Positions 6,034 through 42,096 of a stretch of 64,000 bases of DNA are shown piece by piece (the stretch's first letter is position 1; every line of letters starts with the position of its first letter). Origin of the DNA: Chloracidobacterium validum (lineage in GTDB: Bacteria; Acidobacteriota; Blastocatellia; Chloracidobacteriales; Chloracidobacteriaceae). The notes under the pieces were generated by a model. The model saw nothing but the letters and a program-made list of their open reading frames with translations. It did not search any database and was not told where the DNA came from. The DNA is taken from the NCBI RefSeq assembly GCF_018304825.1, contig NZ_CP072648.1:169501-233500 (forward strand), read 5' to 3'. The position numbers were made by a program, and so were the translations under genes.

Positions 6034-6531
6034 TTATGACTTCGGTTGGGGCAGGACGGCTTCAACGACGCCACTCCGAATGACGACCGAGCAGGTGGCG
6101 CCAATGCGAAATTGCGAAAACAGGTCGGCTGAGACAGAATGCTCATACACTTTGGCACTTTTGGACGACCGAACGCGCACGACATAGCGTTCGGTGCGCT
6201 TGCCGGCACGGTAGTCCGGCCCAGGTGGTAGTTCGGGCCAGCGCGGGTTTGGCGTCGCATCGGCTTCAGTCAGTTCACGGACCGCCACCCACCGTTCACC
6301 GGTTTCACCGGGCAGCAGCGGTTGGCGTTGTTCAAGCTGAATCGTTCGCTCCCATTCAAGGCCAACGACCGTCATGGGCATGGTCTGTGGGCGCGTAGCG
6401 TAATAGAGCAGGCCGGAAAAGACGACGACAATCAGCAATGTCACGCCGCCCACGGCGAGCAGGAATGACTTGAGTGGAAAACCGGCATCGGTTTGGGCTA
6501 CCGGCGGCAGGGTTGAATCAGGTTGTGTCAT
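6034..6531 (-). CDS. Unknown single-pass membrane protein
   Basis: A 165-residue protein starting at MTQPDST; the frame extends further upstream, but this ATG gives a short cytoplasmic tail followed by one strong transmembrane segment (about residues 23-44, FLLAVGGVTLLIVVVFSGLL). The remaining ~120 residues are hydrophilic and would face the periplasm. They include VVGLEWERTIQLEQ, a WER-containing segment seen in other membrane-anchored hypothetical proteins, and a C-terminal beta-rich part. Function is not recognised. It sits 6 bp upstream of the SUFU-like gene and diverges from the SprT-like gene across ~190 bp. Confidence 0.6.
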   Translation of the reverse strand: MTQPDSTLPPVAQTDAGFPLKSFLLAVGGVTLLIVVVFSGLLYYATRPQTMPMTVVGLEWERTIQLEQRQPLLPGETGERWVAVRELTEADATPNPRWPELPPGPDYRAGKRTERYVVRVRSSKSAKVYEHSVSADLFSQFRIGATCSVVIRSGVVEAVLPQPKS

Positions 6532-6722
6532 GAGTCGTTTTTTGGTCAATGTCCACATCTGCCGAGGTCCACGGTTGACGTTCTGACAGAGCAGGCGCTT
6601 TCGATTTTGTGTGAACATGGTGTCCTAGGTCAAAAGCCGCTCCCTCACCTTGCCGAACGGCGCGTTGACGCTGACGGCTGGGGCGGACTATCGTCCGGTG
6701 TAGCGTTGCGTTTTTTGGTTTT

Positions 6723-7508
6723 ATGGCTCATCCAGCACAGCGACTCCATCAGCTTACACACCACGAACTCGTTGAGATTTTCACACGCTGGCAGCAGTTC
6801 ATTGCGCCGCGCGCGCGGCTGCCACGTGCCATTCAGGTGGTGTTTTACCCTTACGTGGGGATCAACAACACCATTCGTCTGCGGGATGGCGTGATGCACG
6901 TCCGGCTGTCGGACATGCTCACCCAGGCGCCAACACCGATTATCGAAGCGGTTGCCGGCATCCTGCTGGCGCGCTTGTTTCGCAAAGCCGTCCCGGCGCG
7001 CTGCACTGAGCTGTTCCGCGAGTACGTGCGCTCAAAGCCCGTGATGCGCATGGCAGAACAGCGCCGCCGTGAACGGGGTTTCAAGTTGGTTTCTGGCGCG
7101 CGTGGGCGGCACTATGACCTCGAACGGCTGTTTCAGTATCTCAACCGGCGTTACTTCGACGGACGCTTGGCGCACCCGGCGCTGACGTGGAGCCAACGCC
7201 GCACGCGCCGGACATTTGGCCATTACGACGCCGCGCATCACACCATTGTCATCAGTCGGACGCTTGATGACGGGCGTGTACCCCAGATGGTCGTTGAATA
7301 TGTGCTGTATCACGAGATGCTTCACATCAAGCACGGCGTCACCCACATCAACGGACGGCGCTGTGTTCACACCCCGGCCTTTCAGGAAGATGAACGGCAG
7401 TTTGAAAGCTATGATCTGGCGTCAGCCTGGTTATGCAGATTGGCGGAGGCGTTGAGCGTCACCCGCCGCTCGTCCAAACCAAGAACGCGCAGCCGCCTCC
7501 CAGACTAG
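6723..7508 (+). CDS. SprT-like/YgjP-type zinc metalloprotease domain protein
   Basis: A 261-residue soluble protein. The zinc site is visible as YHEMLHIKHG (about residues 198-207; HExxH), followed by H.......H...F...E..F, where downstream histidines can supply the third ligand. This layout is that of SprT/WLM-type metallopeptidases. The central part has the SprT-like block FQYLNRRYFDGRLAHPALTW. There is no signal peptide, so it acts in the cytoplasm, perhaps in protein quality control or DNA-protein crosslink repair; that role is inference from the family. The downstream Trm112-like gene follows after 39 bp. Confidence 0.75.
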   Translation: MAHPAQRLHQLTHHELVEIFTRWQQFIAPRARLPRAIQVVFYPYVGINNTIRLRDGVMHVRLSDMLTQAPTPIIEAVAGILLARLFRKAVPARCTELFREYVRSKPVMRMAEQRRRERGFKLVSGARGRHYDLERLFQYLNRRYFDGRLAHPALTWSQRRTRRTFGHYDAAHHTIVISRTLDDGRVPQMVVEYVLYHEMLHIKHGVTHINGRRCVHTPAFQEDERQFESYDLASAWLCRLAEALSVTRRSSKPRTRSRLPD

Positions 7509-7547
7509 CATCTGCCCTGAGTCTGGCGGTCGCCCTGAGAAGGAACG

Positions 7548-7784
7548 ATGATGACTGTGGACGAAAACGTAACTGGCGATAATGGACTGCTGTCAATGAT
7601 CGGTTTGCTCTGCTGCGTGGTGTGTCGGGTTCAAGTTGGCTTGACGCCCGACCGGCAAGGGGTTCAGTGTCGGCGCTGCGACCGGGTGTACCCGATTGAG
7701 GATGGAATTCCCCAAATGCTCATCGAAAAGGCCAAGCTGATTGCTGAAGCGGCGACCGATGGGACGCCGCCCGCAACCACCTAA
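7548..7784 (+). CDS. Trm112/UPF0434-like small zinc-ribbon protein
   Basis: A 78-residue protein with the Trm112-type pattern: a CxxC pair (CCVVCRVQ), then VQCRRCDRVYPIEDGIPQML, whose YPI.dGIP.ml ending is diagnostic. Trm112 proteins activate methyltransferases in eukaryotes and archaea; the bacterial relatives are less well characterised. It is preceded by AGAAGGAACG as a likely ribosome site. It lies between the SprT-like protease and the cystathionine gene, on the same strand. Confidence 0.8.
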   Translation: MMTVDENVTGDNGLLSMIGLLCCVVCRVQVGLTPDRQGVQCRRCDRVYPIEDGIPQMLIEKAKLIAEAATDGTPPATT

Positions 7785-7843
7785 CACGCCCCGCGCCTGA
7801 TGGGCGTCAACGCATCCTGGAGTGCAAGCGAGGAGGTTAGACC

Positions 7844-8986
7844 ATGGGATTCGCCACAGACGTTATTCACGCCGGTCAAGCTCCGGACCCGTCCACCGGC
7901 GCGGTCACCGTGCCGATTTACCAAACCTCGACCTACGTCCAGGATGGGCTGGGGCGCCACAAAGGGTATGAATACGCGCGCACCCACAATCCGACACGCG
8001 CCGCGCTTGAAGCCAACTTGGCGGTTTTGGAAGGTGGCGTTGCTGGGTTTGCCTTCGCCTCAGGCATGGCGGCCATTCACGCTGTCATGACCGCGTGCTT
8101 GAAGGCTGGTGATCACGTTGTCGTCTCTGACAACACCTACGGAGGTACCTACCGGCTTTTCGAGCGGGTTCTGACGGATTTCGGCTTGACGTTCGATTAT
8201 GTGGACGCCAGTGAACCGGCCCAGGTCACGGCGGCACTGCGTCCGACGACGCGCATGGTGTTTCTCGAAACCCCAACCAATCCCGTCATGCGCCTGTGCG
8301 ACATCGCAGCCATTGCACAGGTCGCGCGACCGCGCGGCATCCATGTGGTGGTGGACAACACCTTCATGTCGCCTTACTTTCAGCGTCCGCTGGCGTTGGG
8401 CGCCAACATCGTCGTTCACTCGACGACGAAGTACCTCAACGGCCACAGCGATAGCGTCGGCGGGGTGGTGGTCGTCACGGAACCGGCACTGGCCGAGCGG
8501 CTGGCTTTCGTCCAAAATGCGGCTGGCGCGATTCTGTCGCCCATGGATGCGTGGCTGACCTTACGCGGCATCAAGACGCTCGTCGTCAGAATGCAGGCCC
8601 ATGACGCCAACGGACGCGCCATTGCCCAGTTCCTGCAAGAGCACCCTCGCGTTGAGCGCGTTTACTACCCTGGCTTGGCCGAACATCCCCACCATGCGCT
8701 AGCAAAGCGCCAGATGTCTGGCTTTGGTGGTATGCTGGCCTTTGACGTCGGCCGGCTTGAGGCAGCCCGCAAAGTGCTTGAAACGTTGAGCATATTTGCT
8801 CTGGCCGAGTCATTGGGCGGCGTGGAAAGTTTAGCCTGCCACCCAGCGACGATGACTCACGCCAGCGTTCCGCCGGATGAGCGGCAGCGCTTGGGGATTA
8901 CCGATGGGCTTGTCCGCTTGTCCGTGGGCATTGAGGACCTAACGGACCTGCTTGCCGATGTTGATCGCGCACTGGCGCAAGTGTGA
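7844..8986 (+). CDS. Cystathionine gamma-synthase / gamma-lyase family PLP enzyme
   Basis: A 380-residue Cys/Met-metabolism PLP enzyme of normal length. Family features: FATDVIHAGQ at the N-terminus, the YEYARTHNPTR phosphate/active-site segment near residue 45, DNTFMSPYFQRPL with the PLP-binding Asp, and the PLP lysine in HSTTKYLNGHSD near residue 195. The C-terminal SLGGVESLACHPATMTHA is the conserved substrate-carboxylate region. Sequence alone does not separate synthase (MetB), gamma-lyase and beta-lyase activity, so no symbol is given. AGCGAGGAGG upstream is a strong ribosome site. Confidence 0.9.
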   Translation: MGFATDVIHAGQAPDPSTGAVTVPIYQTSTYVQDGLGRHKGYEYARTHNPTRAALEANLAVLEGGVAGFAFASGMAAIHAVMTACLKAGDHVVVSDNTYGGTYRLFERVLTDFGLTFDYVDASEPAQVTAALRPTTRMVFLETPTNPVMRLCDIAAIAQVARPRGIHVVVDNTFMSPYFQRPLALGANIVVHSTTKYLNGHSDSVGGVVVVTEPALAERLAFVQNAAGAILSPMDAWLTLRGIKTLVVRMQAHDANGRAIAQFLQEHPRVERVYYPGLAEHPHHALAKRQMSGFGGMLAFDVGRLEAARKVLETLSIFALAESLGGVESLACHPATMTHASVPPDERQRLGITDGLVRLSVGIEDLTDLLADVDRALAQV

Positions 8987-37336: not shown

Positions 37337-38125
37337 ATGAGCTTCCCTTACGACATTCGGTTGCCGTGGGGCACCATCCCAATCCACCTTGTCTTTGAAC
37401 TGTTGGCCTACGCCATTGGGTTTCGGCTGTACCTGCGCGCGCGTCGTCGCGCGCCGAGCGAGCTGACGACCGAGCAAGCGGTTTGGATCCTGGTGGGCTG
37501 TCTGGCCGGCGCCTGGCTTGGCTCAAAGCTGGTGGCCTGGTTGGAGCTGCCGACGCTGTACTGGCGCTTCCGTGCCGAGCCGCTGGTGTGGTTGCAGGGA
37601 AAATCCATCGTGGGTGGGCTGCTGGGCGGGTGGGTTGGCGTCGAGGTGGCGAAGACCCTGACCGGCGTTCGGCAGGCAACCGGCGATGCCTATGTCGTGC
37701 CGCTCATCGTCGGCATGGCCATCGGACGCCTTGGCTGTTTCTTCACCGGACTACCCGACGGCACCTGCGGCATTGCCACCAGCCTGCCGTGGGGCGTGGA
37801 TTTCGGCGACGGGCTGCGCCGCCATCCGACGCAGCTCTACGAGATTGCCTATCTTGTCTTGCTGGGCCTCGCGCTCGAACATCACCCATCGCGCCCAGCG
37901 CCGGCCGGCGCACGTTTTCGCTGGTTTTTGCTGGGTTATTTGGCCTTTCGGTTCGTCGTAGAGTTCATCAAGCCCCGGCCGTTCCTGTATCCCTTTGGAC
38001 TGACAGGAATCCAGACCGTGGCGTTGATGGGGATGGCGGCGGCAGCCGTCAGCCTGTGGCGGCAACCGCATCGTGCTCAGGCCACGCCGACTGTGGCCGT
38101 CGAAGGAGGCTCACCCCGTGGCTGA
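37337..38125 (+). CDS. Lgt-like membrane protein (divergent prolipoprotein diacylglyceryl transferase homologue)
   Basis: A 262-residue protein with about seven hydrophobic segments. Lgt landmarks are recognisable: GGLLGGWVGVEV, GMAIGRLGCFFTGLPDG, RRHPTQLYE and FRFVVEFIKPRP (the conserved Arg and Glu of the last segment). But the residue matching E. coli Lgt His103 in the HGG motif is Val (SIVGGLLG), and the Asn of GRxGNF is Cys (GRLGCFF). Both are required or strongly conserved in genuine Lgt. The protein may thus carry out a different lipid reaction. It is coupled (8-bp overlap) to the Tes-like radical SAM gene. Confidence 0.75.
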   Translation: MSFPYDIRLPWGTIPIHLVFELLAYAIGFRLYLRARRRAPSELTTEQAVWILVGCLAGAWLGSKLVAWLELPTLYWRFRAEPLVWLQGKSIVGGLLGGWVGVEVAKTLTGVRQATGDAYVVPLIVGMAIGRLGCFFTGLPDGTCGIATSLPWGVDFGDGLRRHPTQLYEIAYLVLLGLALEHHPSRPAPAGARFRWFLLGYLAFRFVVEFIKPRPFLYPFGLTGIQTVALMGMAAAAVSLWRQPHRAQATPTVAVEGGSPRG

Positions 38126-39560
38126 TCGTCCGTACCTGTTCTATGAACTGACCAACGCCATCTGCTCGACGTGCTACCGCAAGGTCGAAGCCAAGATTGT
38201 CATCGAAGGCGAGCGCGTCTTCATGCACAAGTTCTGTCCCACGCACGGACGCGAACGGGTGCTGATTTCAACCGACGCCGCCTTCTACAAGCAGCAGCGC
38301 CACTTTTTGAAACCCGGCCAGCTCGTCAAGCAGTTCAACACGCCGATTCGCTACGGCTGTCCCTACGACTGCGGCATCTGCCCCGACCACGAACAGCATG
38401 GCTGCCTGACGATTGTGGAGATCACCGACCACTGCAACTTGACCTGTCCGGTGTGCTATGCCGACTCCGGGCCGCACCGGCCGGCCTACCGCAGCCTGGA
38501 GCAGGTGGCGTTCATGCTCGATTGTGTCGTCCGCAACGAAGGCGAGCCGGACATCGTGCAAATCAGCGGCGGCGAGCCAACGCTCCACCCGGCGTTCTTT
38601 GAGATTCTCGATGCCGCCCGCCGCCGTCCCATCAAGCACCTGATGGTCAACACCAACGGCATTCGCCTCGCCCAGGATGAAGCCTTTGTCGAACGGCTGG
38701 CCGGCTACATGCCGGGTTTTGAGGTGTACTTGCAGTTCGACTCGCTGCGCCCAGAGGTCCTGCGTGACTTGCGCGGCATGGATTTGCGGACCGTCCATGA
38801 CCGCGCGCTCGAACGCCTCGACCGGTTCAACATTTCCACCACGCTGGTCGTCACGCTCAAAAAAGGCCTCAACGACGATGAAATCGGCGCGATCGTCAAC
38901 GTTGCCCTACAGTACAAGTGCGTCCGGGGCGTGACCTTGCAGCCCATCCAGGTTGCCGGGCGAACCGAACGGGTTGACCCAGCCCGCGACCGCCTCACGC
39001 TGGGCGAAGTGCGCCAGCAACTGCTCCGGCAGGTGCCGTGGCTCAAGCCGGCGGATGTCCTGCCCGTGCCGTGCCATCCTGACTGTCTGGCGATGGCCTA
39101 CGCGCTCAAGCTCGGCGGCGAAGTCATTCCGCTGACCGGCCTGATTGATCCCCAACTGCTGCTCGATGGCGAAGGCAACACGATTACCTACGAGCGCCAA
39201 CCGGCGTTTCGGGAGCACTTGTTCAAGACCTTCTCAACCGGGCATGCGCCGGCATCGCAGGCGCTTTCGCTGAAACAGTTGCTGTGCTGCCTGCCGTTGG
39301 TCGGCGTCCCGGAAACACTCACCTATGAAAATGTTTTCCGGTTGCTTATCGTGCAGTTCATGGATGCCTACAACCTCGACATCCGCTCGGTGAAGCGGTC
39401 GTGCGTCCACATCGTTCACCCGGACGGGCGGATCATCCCGTTCGATACCTTCAACCTGTTTTACCGCGATGAACGGGAAGCACGGCTGGTGGCGCTGCGC
39501 CGCGGCGTGCTTCCCGACGCGGCAGCACTGCCGGATACCCCATCAGCCGAATATGTCTAG
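38118..39560 (+). CDS. Radical SAM protein of the Tes/MJ0619 (lipid or pterin) type
   Basis: A 480-residue enzyme starting at GTG 38118, with AAGGAGG 8 nt upstream. An N-terminal Cys-rich region (CSTCYRKVEAK, CPTHG) precedes GCPYDCGICPDHEQHGC and the radical-SAM cluster CNLTCPVCYA near residue 105. QISGGEPTLHP follows. This Cys arrangement is that of archaeal tetraether-lipid synthase (Tes) and MJ0619-type proteins. Tes joins lipid tails by C-C bonds; acidobacteria make membrane-spanning iso-diabolic acids, so a similar role is possible, but the true substrate is not known. It is coupled to the Lgt-like gene and to the thioesterase gene. Confidence 0.85.
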   Translation: MADRPYLFYELTNAICSTCYRKVEAKIVIEGERVFMHKFCPTHGRERVLISTDAAFYKQQRHFLKPGQLVKQFNTPIRYGCPYDCGICPDHEQHGCLTIVEITDHCNLTCPVCYADSGPHRPAYRSLEQVAFMLDCVVRNEGEPDIVQISGGEPTLHPAFFEILDAARRRPIKHLMVNTNGIRLAQDEAFVERLAGYMPGFEVYLQFDSLRPEVLRDLRGMDLRTVHDRALERLDRFNISTTLVVTLKKGLNDDEIGAIVNVALQYKCVRGVTLQPIQVAGRTERVDPARDRLTLGEVRQQLLRQVPWLKPADVLPVPCHPDCLAMAYALKLGGEVIPLTGLIDPQLLLDGEGNTITYERQPAFREHLFKTFSTGHAPASQALSLKQLLCCLPLVGVPETLTYENVFRLLIVQFMDAYNLDIRSVKRSCVHIVHPDGRIIPFDTFNLFYRDEREARLVALRRGVLPDAAALPDTPSAEYV

Positions 39561-40014
39561 TGTCCGTGGCTTGCCGATGCCTGAAGACGCGGCGGCGGTC
39601 GTGTCGCCCGTTCGCGTCCGATACGCTGAAACCGACCAGATGGGCGTGGTCTATCACGCCAACTACTTGGTTTGGATGGAAATCGGTCGCACCGATTACT
39701 GCCGCGCCTGCGGAGCCGCCTACCGCGAGCTGGAAGCTGCCGGGTTGCGGCTCGTGGTCGCCGCAGCGCAGGTGCGCTACCACGCGCCCGCCCGCTACGA
39801 TGACGACCTCTGCGTTGTCACGCGCCTGGTGGCGCTGCGCTCGCGGCAGGTAACTTTTGCCTACGAAATTTGGCGAACTGCCGACGGCACGCGCCTGGTG
39901 ACAGGTGAAACCACGCACTTGCCAACCGATCCCCACGGACGCATCATCCGCTTGCCGCCAAGCGTGCAAGCCGCCTTGGCGTCCAAACTCGCGCCCGGCC
40001 ATGGAGGCGACTAG
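39553..40014 (+). CDS. 4HBT/YbgC-type acyl-CoA thioesterase
   Basis: A 153-residue hot-dog-fold protein. VRVRYAETDQMGVVYHANYLVWMEIGRTDYCR holds the catalytic Asp of the 4-hydroxybenzoyl-CoA thioesterase family (xxDxMGHxxNxxYxxWxExGR). The later half has RYHAPARYDDDLCVVTRL, also typical. The start at ATG 39553 overlaps the radical SAM stop by 8 bp; ATG 39574 is an alternative. Context suggests it serves the same acyl-lipid pathway. Confidence 0.87.
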   Translation: MSSVRGLPMPEDAAAVVSPVRVRYAETDQMGVVYHANYLVWMEIGRTDYCRACGAAYRELEAAGLRLVVAAAQVRYHAPARYDDDLCVVTRLVALRSRQVTFAYEIWRTADGTRLVTGETTHLPTDPHGRIIRLPPSVQAALASKLAPGHGGD

Positions 40015-40023
40015 TTTACTGCG

Positions 40024-40617
40024 ATGCTCAGCGAACGCTACGACGAAGCTCTCCTGTTTGCCCACCACCTTCACCGGCAACAGAAACGCAAAGGCGGCAC
40101 GACGCCGTACATTGCGCACCTGCTTTCGGTTTCGGCCCTTGTGCTGGAACACGGGGGAACGGAAGACCAGGCCATTGCCGCGCTGCTGCACGATGCCGTG
40201 GAAGACCAGGGCGGCGATGCGACCCGCCAGGAAATCCGGCGGCGCTTTGGCGCACAGGTGGCCGCCATCGTGGATGACTGCACCGACAGCGACCAAATCC
40301 CCAAGCCGCCGTGGCGCGCGCGCAAGGAAGCCTATCTGGCACACCTCCGTACTCGTCCGGCCACCTCACGCCTGGTGTCGCTAGCCGACAAGGTTCACAA
40401 CGCGCGCGCCATTCTGGCCGACTACCGGGTGGTCGGTGAAGCCCTGTGGTCGCGCTTTGAGGGACGGCGCGACGGCACGTTGTGGTACTACCGGACGCTG
40501 GTCGAAGTCTTTGCCGGCAGTCAGCCAGCGGCGCTGGTCAATGAACTCGAACGCACGGTCAGGGAACTGGAACATCTGGCATCGTCCACAGCGCCCCAAG
40601 CCGAACCTCGGCCCTGA
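40024..40617 (+). CDS. HD-domain protein similar to (p)ppGpp hydrolases (SpoT/Mesh1 type)
   Basis: A 197-residue protein. The HD pattern matches the hydrolase half of RelA/SpoT: FAHHLHRQQKRKGGTTPYIAHLLSVS, IAALLHDAVEDQGG (the HD pair), FGAQVAAIVDDCTDSD, and LVSLADKVHNARAI. There is no synthetase or TGS/ACT domain, so it is a stand-alone hydrolase-type protein of small alarmone hydrolase size. It starts 10 bp after the thioesterase and 10 bp before the carotenoid oxygenase, all on one strand. Confidence 0.85.
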   Translation: MLSERYDEALLFAHHLHRQQKRKGGTTPYIAHLLSVSALVLEHGGTEDQAIAALLHDAVEDQGGDATRQEIRRRFGAQVAAIVDDCTDSDQIPKPPWRARKEAYLAHLRTRPATSRLVSLADKVHNARAILADYRVVGEALWSRFEGRRDGTLWYYRTLVEVFAGSQPAALVNELERTVRELEHLASSTAPQAEPRP

Positions 40618-40626
40618 GAACACACC

Positions 40627-42096
40627 ATGGCTGCTCCCGCTCCACAACCAGAAACCCGGCGTTGGAACCGCGACGACTGGGTACGCGGCTACACGTCGCT
40701 CACCGAAGAACGCGATTACTGGATTGACGACATCGAAGGAACGCTGCCGCCTGATCTGCGCGGCACGCTCTACCGAAACGGCCCAGGACTGCTCGAACGG
40801 GGTGGACAGTCTGTCCAGCACCCTTTCGACGGCGACGGCATGGTCTGCGTGTTTGACTTCACCGGCGATGGGCGCGTGCGGTTTCGGAACCGGTACGTCC
40901 AGACCAAGGGTTTCGTTGCCGAGTCCAAGGCCGGACGGTTCTTGCAGCGGGGCGTGTTTGGGACGCAAAAACCCGGCGGCTGGCTGGCCAATGCGTTTGA
41001 CCTTCAGGCCAAAAACATTGCCAACACGAATGTCGCCTACGCGCCCAAAAAGCTGCTGGCGCTTTGGGAAGGCGGTAAGCCATACGCGCTGGATCCACAA
41101 ACCTTGGAGACGCTTGGTGAAGATGACTTGGGTGGTGCTCTGGCTGGCAGCGCCAACTTTGCGGCGCACCCACGCTACGACCGCCGAACGGGGCAGATGG
41201 TCAACTTTGGCATCCAGCCGGGGCTTTCTTCCACGGTGACGCTCTACACGCTCGATGCCGACCTGGAGGTGACGGCACAGCATCGGTGGGAAGTGCCGGG
41301 CTTTGCGTTCATCCACGATTTTGCGCTGACCGATGACTACGCCGTGTTTTTTCAGAACCCGGTCACGGTCAATCCCCTGCCGTACTGGTTCGGCTTCCGG
41401 GGCGCGGCTGAATGCCTGGTCTTTCAAGCCAGTCGCCCGACGAAGATTCACCTGCTGCCGCGCGCCGGCGGGCGGATGCGCACCTATGAAACCGACGCCT
41501 GTTTTGTGTTCCACCACGTCAACGCGCACCTGGCGGATGACATCCTGACCGTGGATTCGATTGCCTATGAAACCTTCCCGTCGCTTGAGCCGGGGACAAT
41601 GTATCGGCAGGTTGAGATTGAAAAGATCGCGGCTTCGCAGCTTTTCCGCTTCACAGTCAACCTGGCGACTGGTGAAACCAAGCGCGAACGTTTGATGGAA
41701 CGCGCCGTGGAGTTTCCGAGCGTCCATCCCAAGCGCGTGGGGCAGCCGCATCGGTGGGCCTTTATGGCCATGGCGGACGCGCCGACCGGCAATGCGCCGC
41801 TCCAGGGCGTTTTGGCCTACGACACGAAGACCGGCACAGCTCAGACCTACAGCTTTGCGCCGAAGGGGTATGTCGGCGAACCAGTCTTCGTCCCGAAGCC
41901 CGGCGTGGCGGAAGACCAAGTAGAAGAAAATGCCGGTTACTTGCTCCAGATGGTGTTCGATGCGCCGCGCGCGACCAGCAGCCTGGCCGTCTTCGATGCC
42001 CAGAACCTTGCCAACGGGCCGCTGGCGCGACTGCATCTGCGGGACATCGTCCCCTATGGCCTGCACGGTCAGTTTGTCCCGGCACGCAACCCCTGA
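40627..42096 (+). CDS. Carotenoid cleavage oxygenase (RPE65/CCD family)
   Basis: A 489-residue non-haem iron dioxygenase-like protein. The family start TLYRNGPGLLERGG and PFDGDGMVCVF are present, as are the four iron-binding His segments: FAAHPRYD, FAFIHDFALTDDY, CFVFHHVNAHL and YGLHGQFVP. Together these predict a seven-bladed propeller with intact iron site. It probably cleaves a carotenoid or apocarotenoid double bond to aldehydes; exact substrate is unknown. The gene ends 17 bp before the convergent sigma factor. Confidence 0.92.
   Translation: MAAPAPQPETRRWNRDDWVRGYTSLTEERDYWIDDIEGTLPPDLRGTLYRNGPGLLERGGQSVQHPFDGDGMVCVFDFTGDGRVRFRNRYVQTKGFVAESKAGRFLQRGVFGTQKPGGWLANAFDLQAKNIANTNVAYAPKKLLALWEGGKPYALDPQTLETLGEDDLGGALAGSANFAAHPRYDRRTGQMVNFGIQPGLSSTVTLYTLDADLEVTAQHRWEVPGFAFIHDFALTDDYAVFFQNPVTVNPLPYWFGFRGAAECLVFQASRPTKIHLLPRAGGRMRTYETDACFVFHHVNAHLADDILTVDSIAYETFPSLEPGTMYRQVEIEKIAASQLFRFTVNLATGETKRERLMERAVEFPSVHPKRVGQPHRWAFMAMADAPTGNAPLQGVLAYDTKTGTAQTYSFAPKGYVGEPVFVPKPGVAEDQVEENAGYLLQMVFDAPRATSSLAVFDAQNLANGPLARLHLRDIVPYGLHGQFVPARNP

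Follow-up and report, generated by a model that had tools for sequence, protein, structure and literature searches.

A widespread bacterial gene pair encoding an Lgt paralogue and a Tes-fold radical SAM protein, and its possible role in lipid modification

The locus in Chloracidobacterium validum and the conserved gene pair

Chloracidobacterium validum BV2-C is a phototroph in the Blastocatellia (Acidobacteriota), with chromosomes of 2,659,040 and 1,000,103 bp (PMC12816986). The stretch of DNA analyzed here, referred to as the window, comprises 64,000 nucleotides of its genome (C1:169501-233500) and contains, downstream of atpC, a locus of three genes: the first encodes a protein resembling the prolipoprotein diacylglyceryl transferase Lgt, the second a radical SAM (S-adenosylmethionine) protein with the fold of the archaeal tetraether lipid synthase Tes, and the third a hot-dog thioesterase. 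The conserved unit at this locus is the pair formed by the Lgt-like and radical SAM genes, which is widespread in bacteria and occurs sporadically over at least eight phyla. A preliminary description, made from the sequence, had proposed that all three genes form a lipid-modification module joined by exact 8-bp overlaps, and these overlaps were confirmed from the open reading frames (ORFs):

37337..38125, + strand: Lgt-like gene; 262 amino acids; paralogue of prolipoprotein diacylglyceryl transferase, with the donor-lipid residues kept and His103 replaced by Val
38118..39560, + strand: radical SAM gene; GTG start; 480 amino acids; Tes/GDGT-MAS fold, outside the Tes clade, with a remodelled C-terminal cysteine set
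39553..40014, + strand: hot-dog thioesterase gene; YbgC/FadM-type; beside the pair only in Chloracidobacterium
38118..38125, + strand: 8-bp overlap of the Lgt-like and radical SAM genes, GTGGCTGA
39553..39560, + strand: 8-bp overlap of the radical SAM and thioesterase genes, ATGTCTAG

A scan of genome contigs for the radical SAM protein returned at least 583 confirmed relatives; the locus counts given below refer to the best 80 and hence to close relatives. An Lgt-like gene (BLASTP match) was present in 73 of these 80 loci, always on the same strand (73/73). It lies within 150 bp of the radical SAM gene in 57 of the 73, and in the rest it is located 165 to 3208 bp upstream or, in one case, downstream. 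According to the record titles, the 73 pair loci span at least eight phyla, including Bacillota, Cyanobacteria, Pseudomonadota, Bacteroidota, Planctomycetota, and Acidobacteriota. Among the seven loci lacking an Lgt-like match, three (L089, L103, and L104) have almost no sequence ahead of the radical SAM gene, and four (L048, L064, L075, and L088) have room for one.

The same association was found within two groups of relatives. From one Paenibacillus family, 59 genomes were drawn around a pair-bearing Paenibacillus that is itself one of the 59. Fourteen of them contain the radical SAM gene, and exactly these 14 also contain the Lgt-like gene (E ≤ 1e-45), which is adjacent to it every time; five other genomes of this family contain weaker LGT-type matches only. 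In a sample of 20 Blastocatellia chosen from 58 relatives, all 10 genomes with the radical SAM gene have the Lgt-like gene (E ≤ 1e-60), all nine genomes without it lack an Lgt-like gene at that level (best E 1.9e-30), and the remaining genome has a divergent pair (34% identity for the radical SAM protein, 31% for the Lgt-like protein). The distance matrices of the two proteins are correlated (r 0.856, n = 73, with none of 2000 permutations as high), a correlation that could arise from shared descent alone.

The third gene of the locus is of a different kind. Its product (P0003) scores 93.6 bits against TIGR00051, above the subfamily cut-off of 68.7, and is thus a hot-dog thioesterase of the YbgC/FadM acyl-CoA type (PDB 1Z54), as the preliminary description had stated. 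The gene differs from these relatives in its setting beside the partner pair, where it is not conserved: it has a match in 1 of the 80 radical SAM loci and was rejected as a core component. In the 14 loci of clade A (L003 and L007-L019), a thioesterase stands beside the radical SAM gene in six, all from the genus Chloracidobacterium. The proposed module therefore holds for the first two genes, which travel together, and not for the third, which is a local addition in Chloracidobacterium.

The Lgt-like and radical SAM proteins

Lgt is represented by PF01790, TIGR00544, and PDB 5AZB. The Lgt-like protein scores 82.6 bits against the Pfam LGT model, above its cut-off of 24.9, and 39.9 bits against the lgt equivalog model, below its cut-off of 118.9. 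Its AlphaFold 2 (AF2) model (pLDDT, the predicted local confidence score, 92) matches the fold of Escherichia coli Lgt with an E value of 1.1e-7. When aligned with the E. coli enzyme, it has Val92 at the position of His103, Cys134 at Asn146, Arg205 at R239, and Glu209 at E243, so the valine and the late arginine and glutamate noted in the preliminary description are all present. A second lgt gene, whose absence this description had named as part of a refutation, was found at C1:1596569, and it has the better score. At least two LGT matches occur in every one of 29 radical SAM-bearing genomes searched, and the Lgt-like protein is outscored by another LGT match in all 27 genomes with the pair at the locus.

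The alignments used here and below are subsets of the 73 Lgt-like loci (A4) and of the 80 radical SAM loci (A3), and the trees were thinned again to about half. In the resulting tree, 27 Lgt-like sequences are separated from 35 other Lgts, most of them encoded in the same genomes, by a branch with 98/93 support that is found in 99% of 200 bootstrap trees. Four of the original 39 other Lgts (L130, L133, L140, and L146) had been dropped from the tree and from the residue counts by length (minimum 150 amino acids).

Equivalents of Arg143, Arg239, Tyr235, and Gly154 are kept in all 52 Lgt-like rows of the alignment and, together with the fold and an equivalent of D129, are shared with Lgt. The Lgt-like proteins differ from Lgt in having their own clade and a radical SAM partner, as well as in the residue at the position of His103, which is always aliphatic (V 46, I 3, L 2, M 1; n = 52) and is most often H (14) or Y (14) in the 35 other Lgts. 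The reported substitutes for Lgt His103 are Tyr, Trp, and Phe (PMC13251419); neither His nor any of these is found there in the 52 rows. A further difference concerns Tyr26 and depends on the alignment: in an uncertain column, His is present in 51 of 52 Lgt-like rows and Tyr in 30 of 35 other Lgts, and pairwise alignment puts Tyr26 at Glu21 instead. The Lgt-like clade also has near-invariant residues of its own, namely Glu103, Lys106, Asp158, and Arg162.

In E. coli Lgt, donor activation has been attributed to Arg143 and Arg239, and the acceptor has been proposed to bind at the HGGL motif, which contains His103 (PMC4728403). As the equivalents of both arginines are kept and His103 is changed, the donor side appears to be retained and the acceptor side altered. 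From these residues we infer a protein with a phospholipid-binding, diacylglyceryl-donating site and a changed acceptor site.

The cysteine at the Asn146 position is present as the preliminary description had stated. It was rejected as a mark of novelty since it is also found in 17 of the 35 comparison Lgts; it occurs likewise in the better-scoring Lgt of the same genome and has been described before (PMC13251419). Two side observations concern the gene family. Chloracidobacterium carries two LGT-family genes despite little or no phosphatidylglycerol, and the Paenibacillus family includes two genomes where neighboring reading frames encode the two halves of the Lgt-like protein separately (G105:C1:1899458-1900205 and G119:C1:1577584-1578329).

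None of the 25 family matches shown (of 41) for the radical SAM protein (P0002) lies above its own cut-off. The best model is TrsS (NF045646; 302.8 bits, cut-off 490), and the Tes equivalog model (NF045702) gives 272.1 bits (cut-off 450). The Tes-type cysteine pattern reported in the preliminary description was recovered, with the motifs CX2CX20CX2H, CX3CX2C plus His, and the radical SAM CX3CX2C (for the spacing in Tes, see PMC9433317), and the rubredoxin-like, N-terminal cluster, and radical SAM motifs are invariant in 51 of 51 rows. The AF2 model (pLDDT 84) aligns with archaeal Tes (PDB 7TOM) with a Z score of 42.9 and a root-mean-square deviation of 2.7 over 404 residues (Foldseek E 1.8e-34). 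The next fold matches, SkfB, SuiB, anSME, MoaA, and viperin, cover the common radical SAM core only; in VIA-align, rows below 7TOM and 7TOL have Z scores of 19.1 or less, which represents this core.

The resemblance to Tes ends in the C-terminal part. There, Tes has a cluster on which the first lipid radical is retained through a C-S bond (PMC9433317), and its cysteine ligands are taken here from the alignment, not from that paper. The position of Tes Cys470 is occupied by Asp or Glu (D 40, E 11; n = 51; Asp443 in the window protein), and that of the second C-terminal cysteine by Cys in 29 of 51 rows. Neither Met439 (M 34, V 14, I 2, L 1; n = 51) nor Tyr459, which aligns with Ile432 of the window protein in a mostly Ile column, is kept as in Tes, and a stretch that the Tes rows have ahead of the C-terminal cysteine is missing from the aligned segments compared. 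Four other cysteines (C319, C390, C391, and C429) are invariant; because AF2 confidence is low at residues 370-399, the modelled place of C390 and C391 was not used. In the phylogeny, a check suggested by the preliminary description, the radical SAM clade is split from Tes at 99/98, although the branches of this tree are long and its outgroup has few rows (one row, L081, was dropped from the alignment for a stop codon). The protein is thus a Tes/TrsS-fold enzyme that forms its own clade.

The methyltransferase-linked homologues fall on both sides of this split, L107 with the radical SAM clade and L108, on a long branch, with Tes. The window protein thus shares with TrsS the top-scoring model and the tree side of L107, and it differs from TrsS in having an Lgt-like partner and no methyltransferase, and in the Asp or Glu at the PFC cysteine. 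In the literature, one table row on TrsS was found. The C. validum genome itself encodes two paralogues. The first (L111, on C2) has its radical SAM gene (7020-8768, - strand) directly beside a class I methyltransferase gene (6211-7023, - strand), an arrangement shared with Mycolicibacterium (L107) and Halorarius (L108), from which the methyltransferase partner of TrsS, known as TrsM, was deduced. The second (L112, on C1; 6018-8237, - strand) is longer, belongs to the Tes side of the tree, and lies near genes that, judged by eye, are nuo-like. Among the 58 Blastocatellia relatives, the L112-type paralogue occurs in 53, counted from search rows with a single member placed in the tree, and the clade of the window protein in 15, including one fragment.

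A small membrane protein with a conserved cysteine

Many pair loci contain a third partner that went beyond the preliminary description and was not found in the window, where the thioesterase gene occupies its place. Small ORFs were counted by a fixed rule (45-175 amino acids, two or more hydrophobic helices, and a Cys in or near one of them) in 78 loci, leaving out L064 and L074, whose sequence stops too close behind the radical SAM gene. Such an ORF lies around the pair in 49 of the 78 loci. In the downstream zone only, the count is 41 of 78 loci (39 with the start limits of the control) and among 365 control positions, located behind other genes, it is 7; dropping the requirement for a Cys raises the control count to 10.

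A profile built on 21 of the small downstream proteins matches 39 loci. The family aligned by this profile (40 sequences from 37 loci, E ≤ 1e-5) has the motif G..Q..Y..P...G..I..fLlnaaC.g, with the Cys present in 39 of 40 sequences and the 40th cut by a contig end. The small proteins of other groups appear unrelated to these and are laid out in a similar way. Those of Bacteroidota carry ...GLSTCG or ...GFSVCT. In Terriglobia they are encoded between the two genes, often in tandem, and carry ...SIGLCG; in some Paenibacillus and Saccharibacillus the small protein is encoded upstream and has a zinc-ribbon start and ...LLAICGGM. In Persicobacter a small membrane protein gene follows the radical SAM gene, and in the divergent pair of G017 a 160-amino-acid membrane protein ending in ...LAGTCFAIVMAYQ is encoded between the Lgt-like and radical SAM genes. 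Overall, the small proteins share little sequence beyond the helix and the Cys. In the aligned families, this Cys sits at the distal end of a transmembrane helix and in most cases follows a Lys or Arg by 15-21 residues. As a rule it either closes the first helix or precedes the C-terminus by 6-13 residues, in a list of positions that also contains unrelated Cys.

Three variations of this arrangement were seen. Three tandem copies of the small membrane protein gene are present in each of two loci (L017, 601-1571, - strand; L073, 7097-7871, + strand). Just upstream of the Lgt-like gene, two loci (L044, 6897-7166; L057, 6784-7116) encode a B-box-like zinc ribbon, below cut-off, followed by a C-terminal helix with ICG. 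Finally, two loci (L099, 7513-7989; L102, 7228-7992) have genes with ordinary-looking lipoprotein signal peptides between the Lgt-like and radical SAM genes.

Lgt paralogues are already known (PMC13251419), as are Tes homologues in bacteria (PMC8941075). The combination of an Lgt-like and a radical SAM protein with a small Cys-containing membrane protein appears to be undescribed, although its parts have known folds; among the literature matches listed, none is a paper on the pairing of lgt with a radical SAM gene.

Possible functions of the module

An enzyme with the donor site of Lgt and a dedicated small protein whose Cys lies at the membrane face match what one would expect of a transferase and its acceptor. 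The Lgt-like enzyme may therefore attach diacylglyceryl, or a related lipid group, to the Cys of the small membrane protein. Situated at the periplasmic face, this Cys would mimic that of a lipobox in a protein that lacks an ordinary signal peptide; the radical SAM enzyme would then modify the lipidated product or its acyl chain. We propose this chain of events as a whole tentatively, as the best of the readings considered here, plausible yet short of probable. Its fuller form, a new lipidation system in which an internal transmembrane Cys of a tiny polytopic protein is lipidated without signal peptide cleavage and the lipid is then altered by the radical SAM enzyme, seems to us rather doubtful. 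The product would possibly be a radically modified lipid anchor on a membrane protein.

Several observations weigh against Cys lipidation. The weakest part is the radical SAM step, whose presumed target is deduced solely from the modelled fold. In C. validum, phosphatidylglycerol, which E. coli Lgt uses as its donor, is described as undetected or present in traces (PMC12816986). In 29 of the 78 loci the rule finds no small ORF, although some of these (such as L028, L035, and L039) are missed only through the choice of start and are found by the profile search. The Cys itself could be structural: the residues at -3 and -1 before it do not match the lipobox consensus, and among the 10 small membrane ORFs of the control, 7 carry a Cys of this sort. 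As the control count barely changes with this condition (10 versus 7), the Cys rule adds little, and it is conservation in the alignments that counts. The small proteins tested reach no Pfam or NCBIfam cut-off. Moreover, no such protein was found in the window by profile or pattern scan, nor elsewhere in the same genome by a profile search (A2; E ≤ 1) run without a positive control on very divergent proteins. The pattern scan, which covered the window and L115, also missed the L114 protein, so its empty result is weak.

The absence of the small protein from the Chloracidobacterium results would fit a module that acts on lipids only. In that case, the Lgt-like protein would add diacylglyceryl to a small acceptor or a head group, or remove it from one; the radical SAM enzyme would methylate, desaturate, or couple the acyl chain of that lipid or insert sulfur into it; and the small protein, where present, would be a scaffold holding the soluble enzyme at the membrane. 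The donor-site residues kept in the Lgt-like protein and the Tes-type fold over most of the radical SAM chain are in line with this idea, as Tes is reported to accommodate two lipids in hydrophobic pockets without specificity for their head groups (PMC9433317). We nevertheless regard it as unlikely, since it leaves the conserved Cys at the membrane face unexplained and since the Tes C-terminal cysteine pattern, with the stretch before it, is lost.

A narrower use of such chemistry is the one put forward in the preliminary description, which had the radical SAM enzyme couple acyl chain ends into membrane-spanning iso-diabolic lipids, an Mss or Tes activity, with the Lgt-like protein presenting the lipid. 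C. validum makes iso-diabolic acid and iso-C15:0 (PMC12816986), bacterial Tes homologues have been proposed for this synthesis (PMC8941075), and the catalytic architecture of the bacterial membrane-spanning lipid synthase Mss, compared here by description only, is described as shared with Tes (PMC13274423). The Tes fold of the radical SAM protein speaks for coupling, which is weakened by the position outside the Tes clade, by the acidic residue at Cys470 in all 51 rows, by Met in 34 of 51 at Met439, and by the mostly Ile column at Tyr459. The distribution in Blastocatellia (15 of 58 versus 53 of 58) also favors another paralogue than the window protein, and L112 is the better candidate for iso-diabolic acid synthesis. 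Finally, the module occurs in Paenibacillus, Chitinophaga, and Cyanobacteria, which are not known as producers of membrane-spanning lipids. Their synthesis by this enzyme is less likely than Cys lipidation, and on the whole we consider it very improbable.

In peptide-maturing systems, a small gene adjacent to the radical SAM gene is the usual layout. The radical SAM enzyme could accordingly modify a residue of the small membrane protein, anchored or presented by the Lgt-like protein, and the small gene beside it, the tandem small genes in L017 and L073, and the fold matches ranking next, which include SkfB, SuiB, and anSME as well as MoaA and viperin, agree with such a role. These matches are limited to the common core, no family match among those shown exceeds its cut-off, and the small proteins are alike in little but a helix and a Cys, which together make peptide maturation decidedly unlikely. 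There is similarly little to recommend the idea that the Lgt-like protein is a second general Lgt that modifies ordinary lipoproteins under some condition and merely has a radical SAM neighbor. The Pfam score, the match to the E. coli Lgt fold, and the lipoprotein-like genes between the pair in L099 and L102 point that way; the equivalog score far under cut-off, the separate clade, the changes at His103 and, with an uncertain alignment, at Tyr26, and the tie to the radical SAM gene across phyla point the other.

Lgt, which has been proposed as an antibiotic target (PMC13251419), is usually regarded as a single enzyme with a single job. The results presented here describe a whole clade of Lgt paralogues, read by Pfam as LGT, that is linked to a radical SAM protein and often to a small membrane protein. 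If the Cys of the latter is lipidated, this would be a bacterial lipidation route outside the signal-peptide pathway, and if the radical SAM enzyme acts on lipid tails, it would represent a second chemistry on the Tes scaffold. Such an activity is testable because the module is compact and present in culturable bacteria, among them Chitinophaga and Paenibacillus. The findings also caution against taking every bacterial Tes homologue for a membrane-spanning lipid synthase.

Two further genes follow the thioesterase gene in the window, an HD-domain gene (40024-40617) and an RPE65-type carotenoid/stilbene oxygenase gene (40627-42096). With gaps of about 10 bp, they are placed as if they were part of a single transcription unit.

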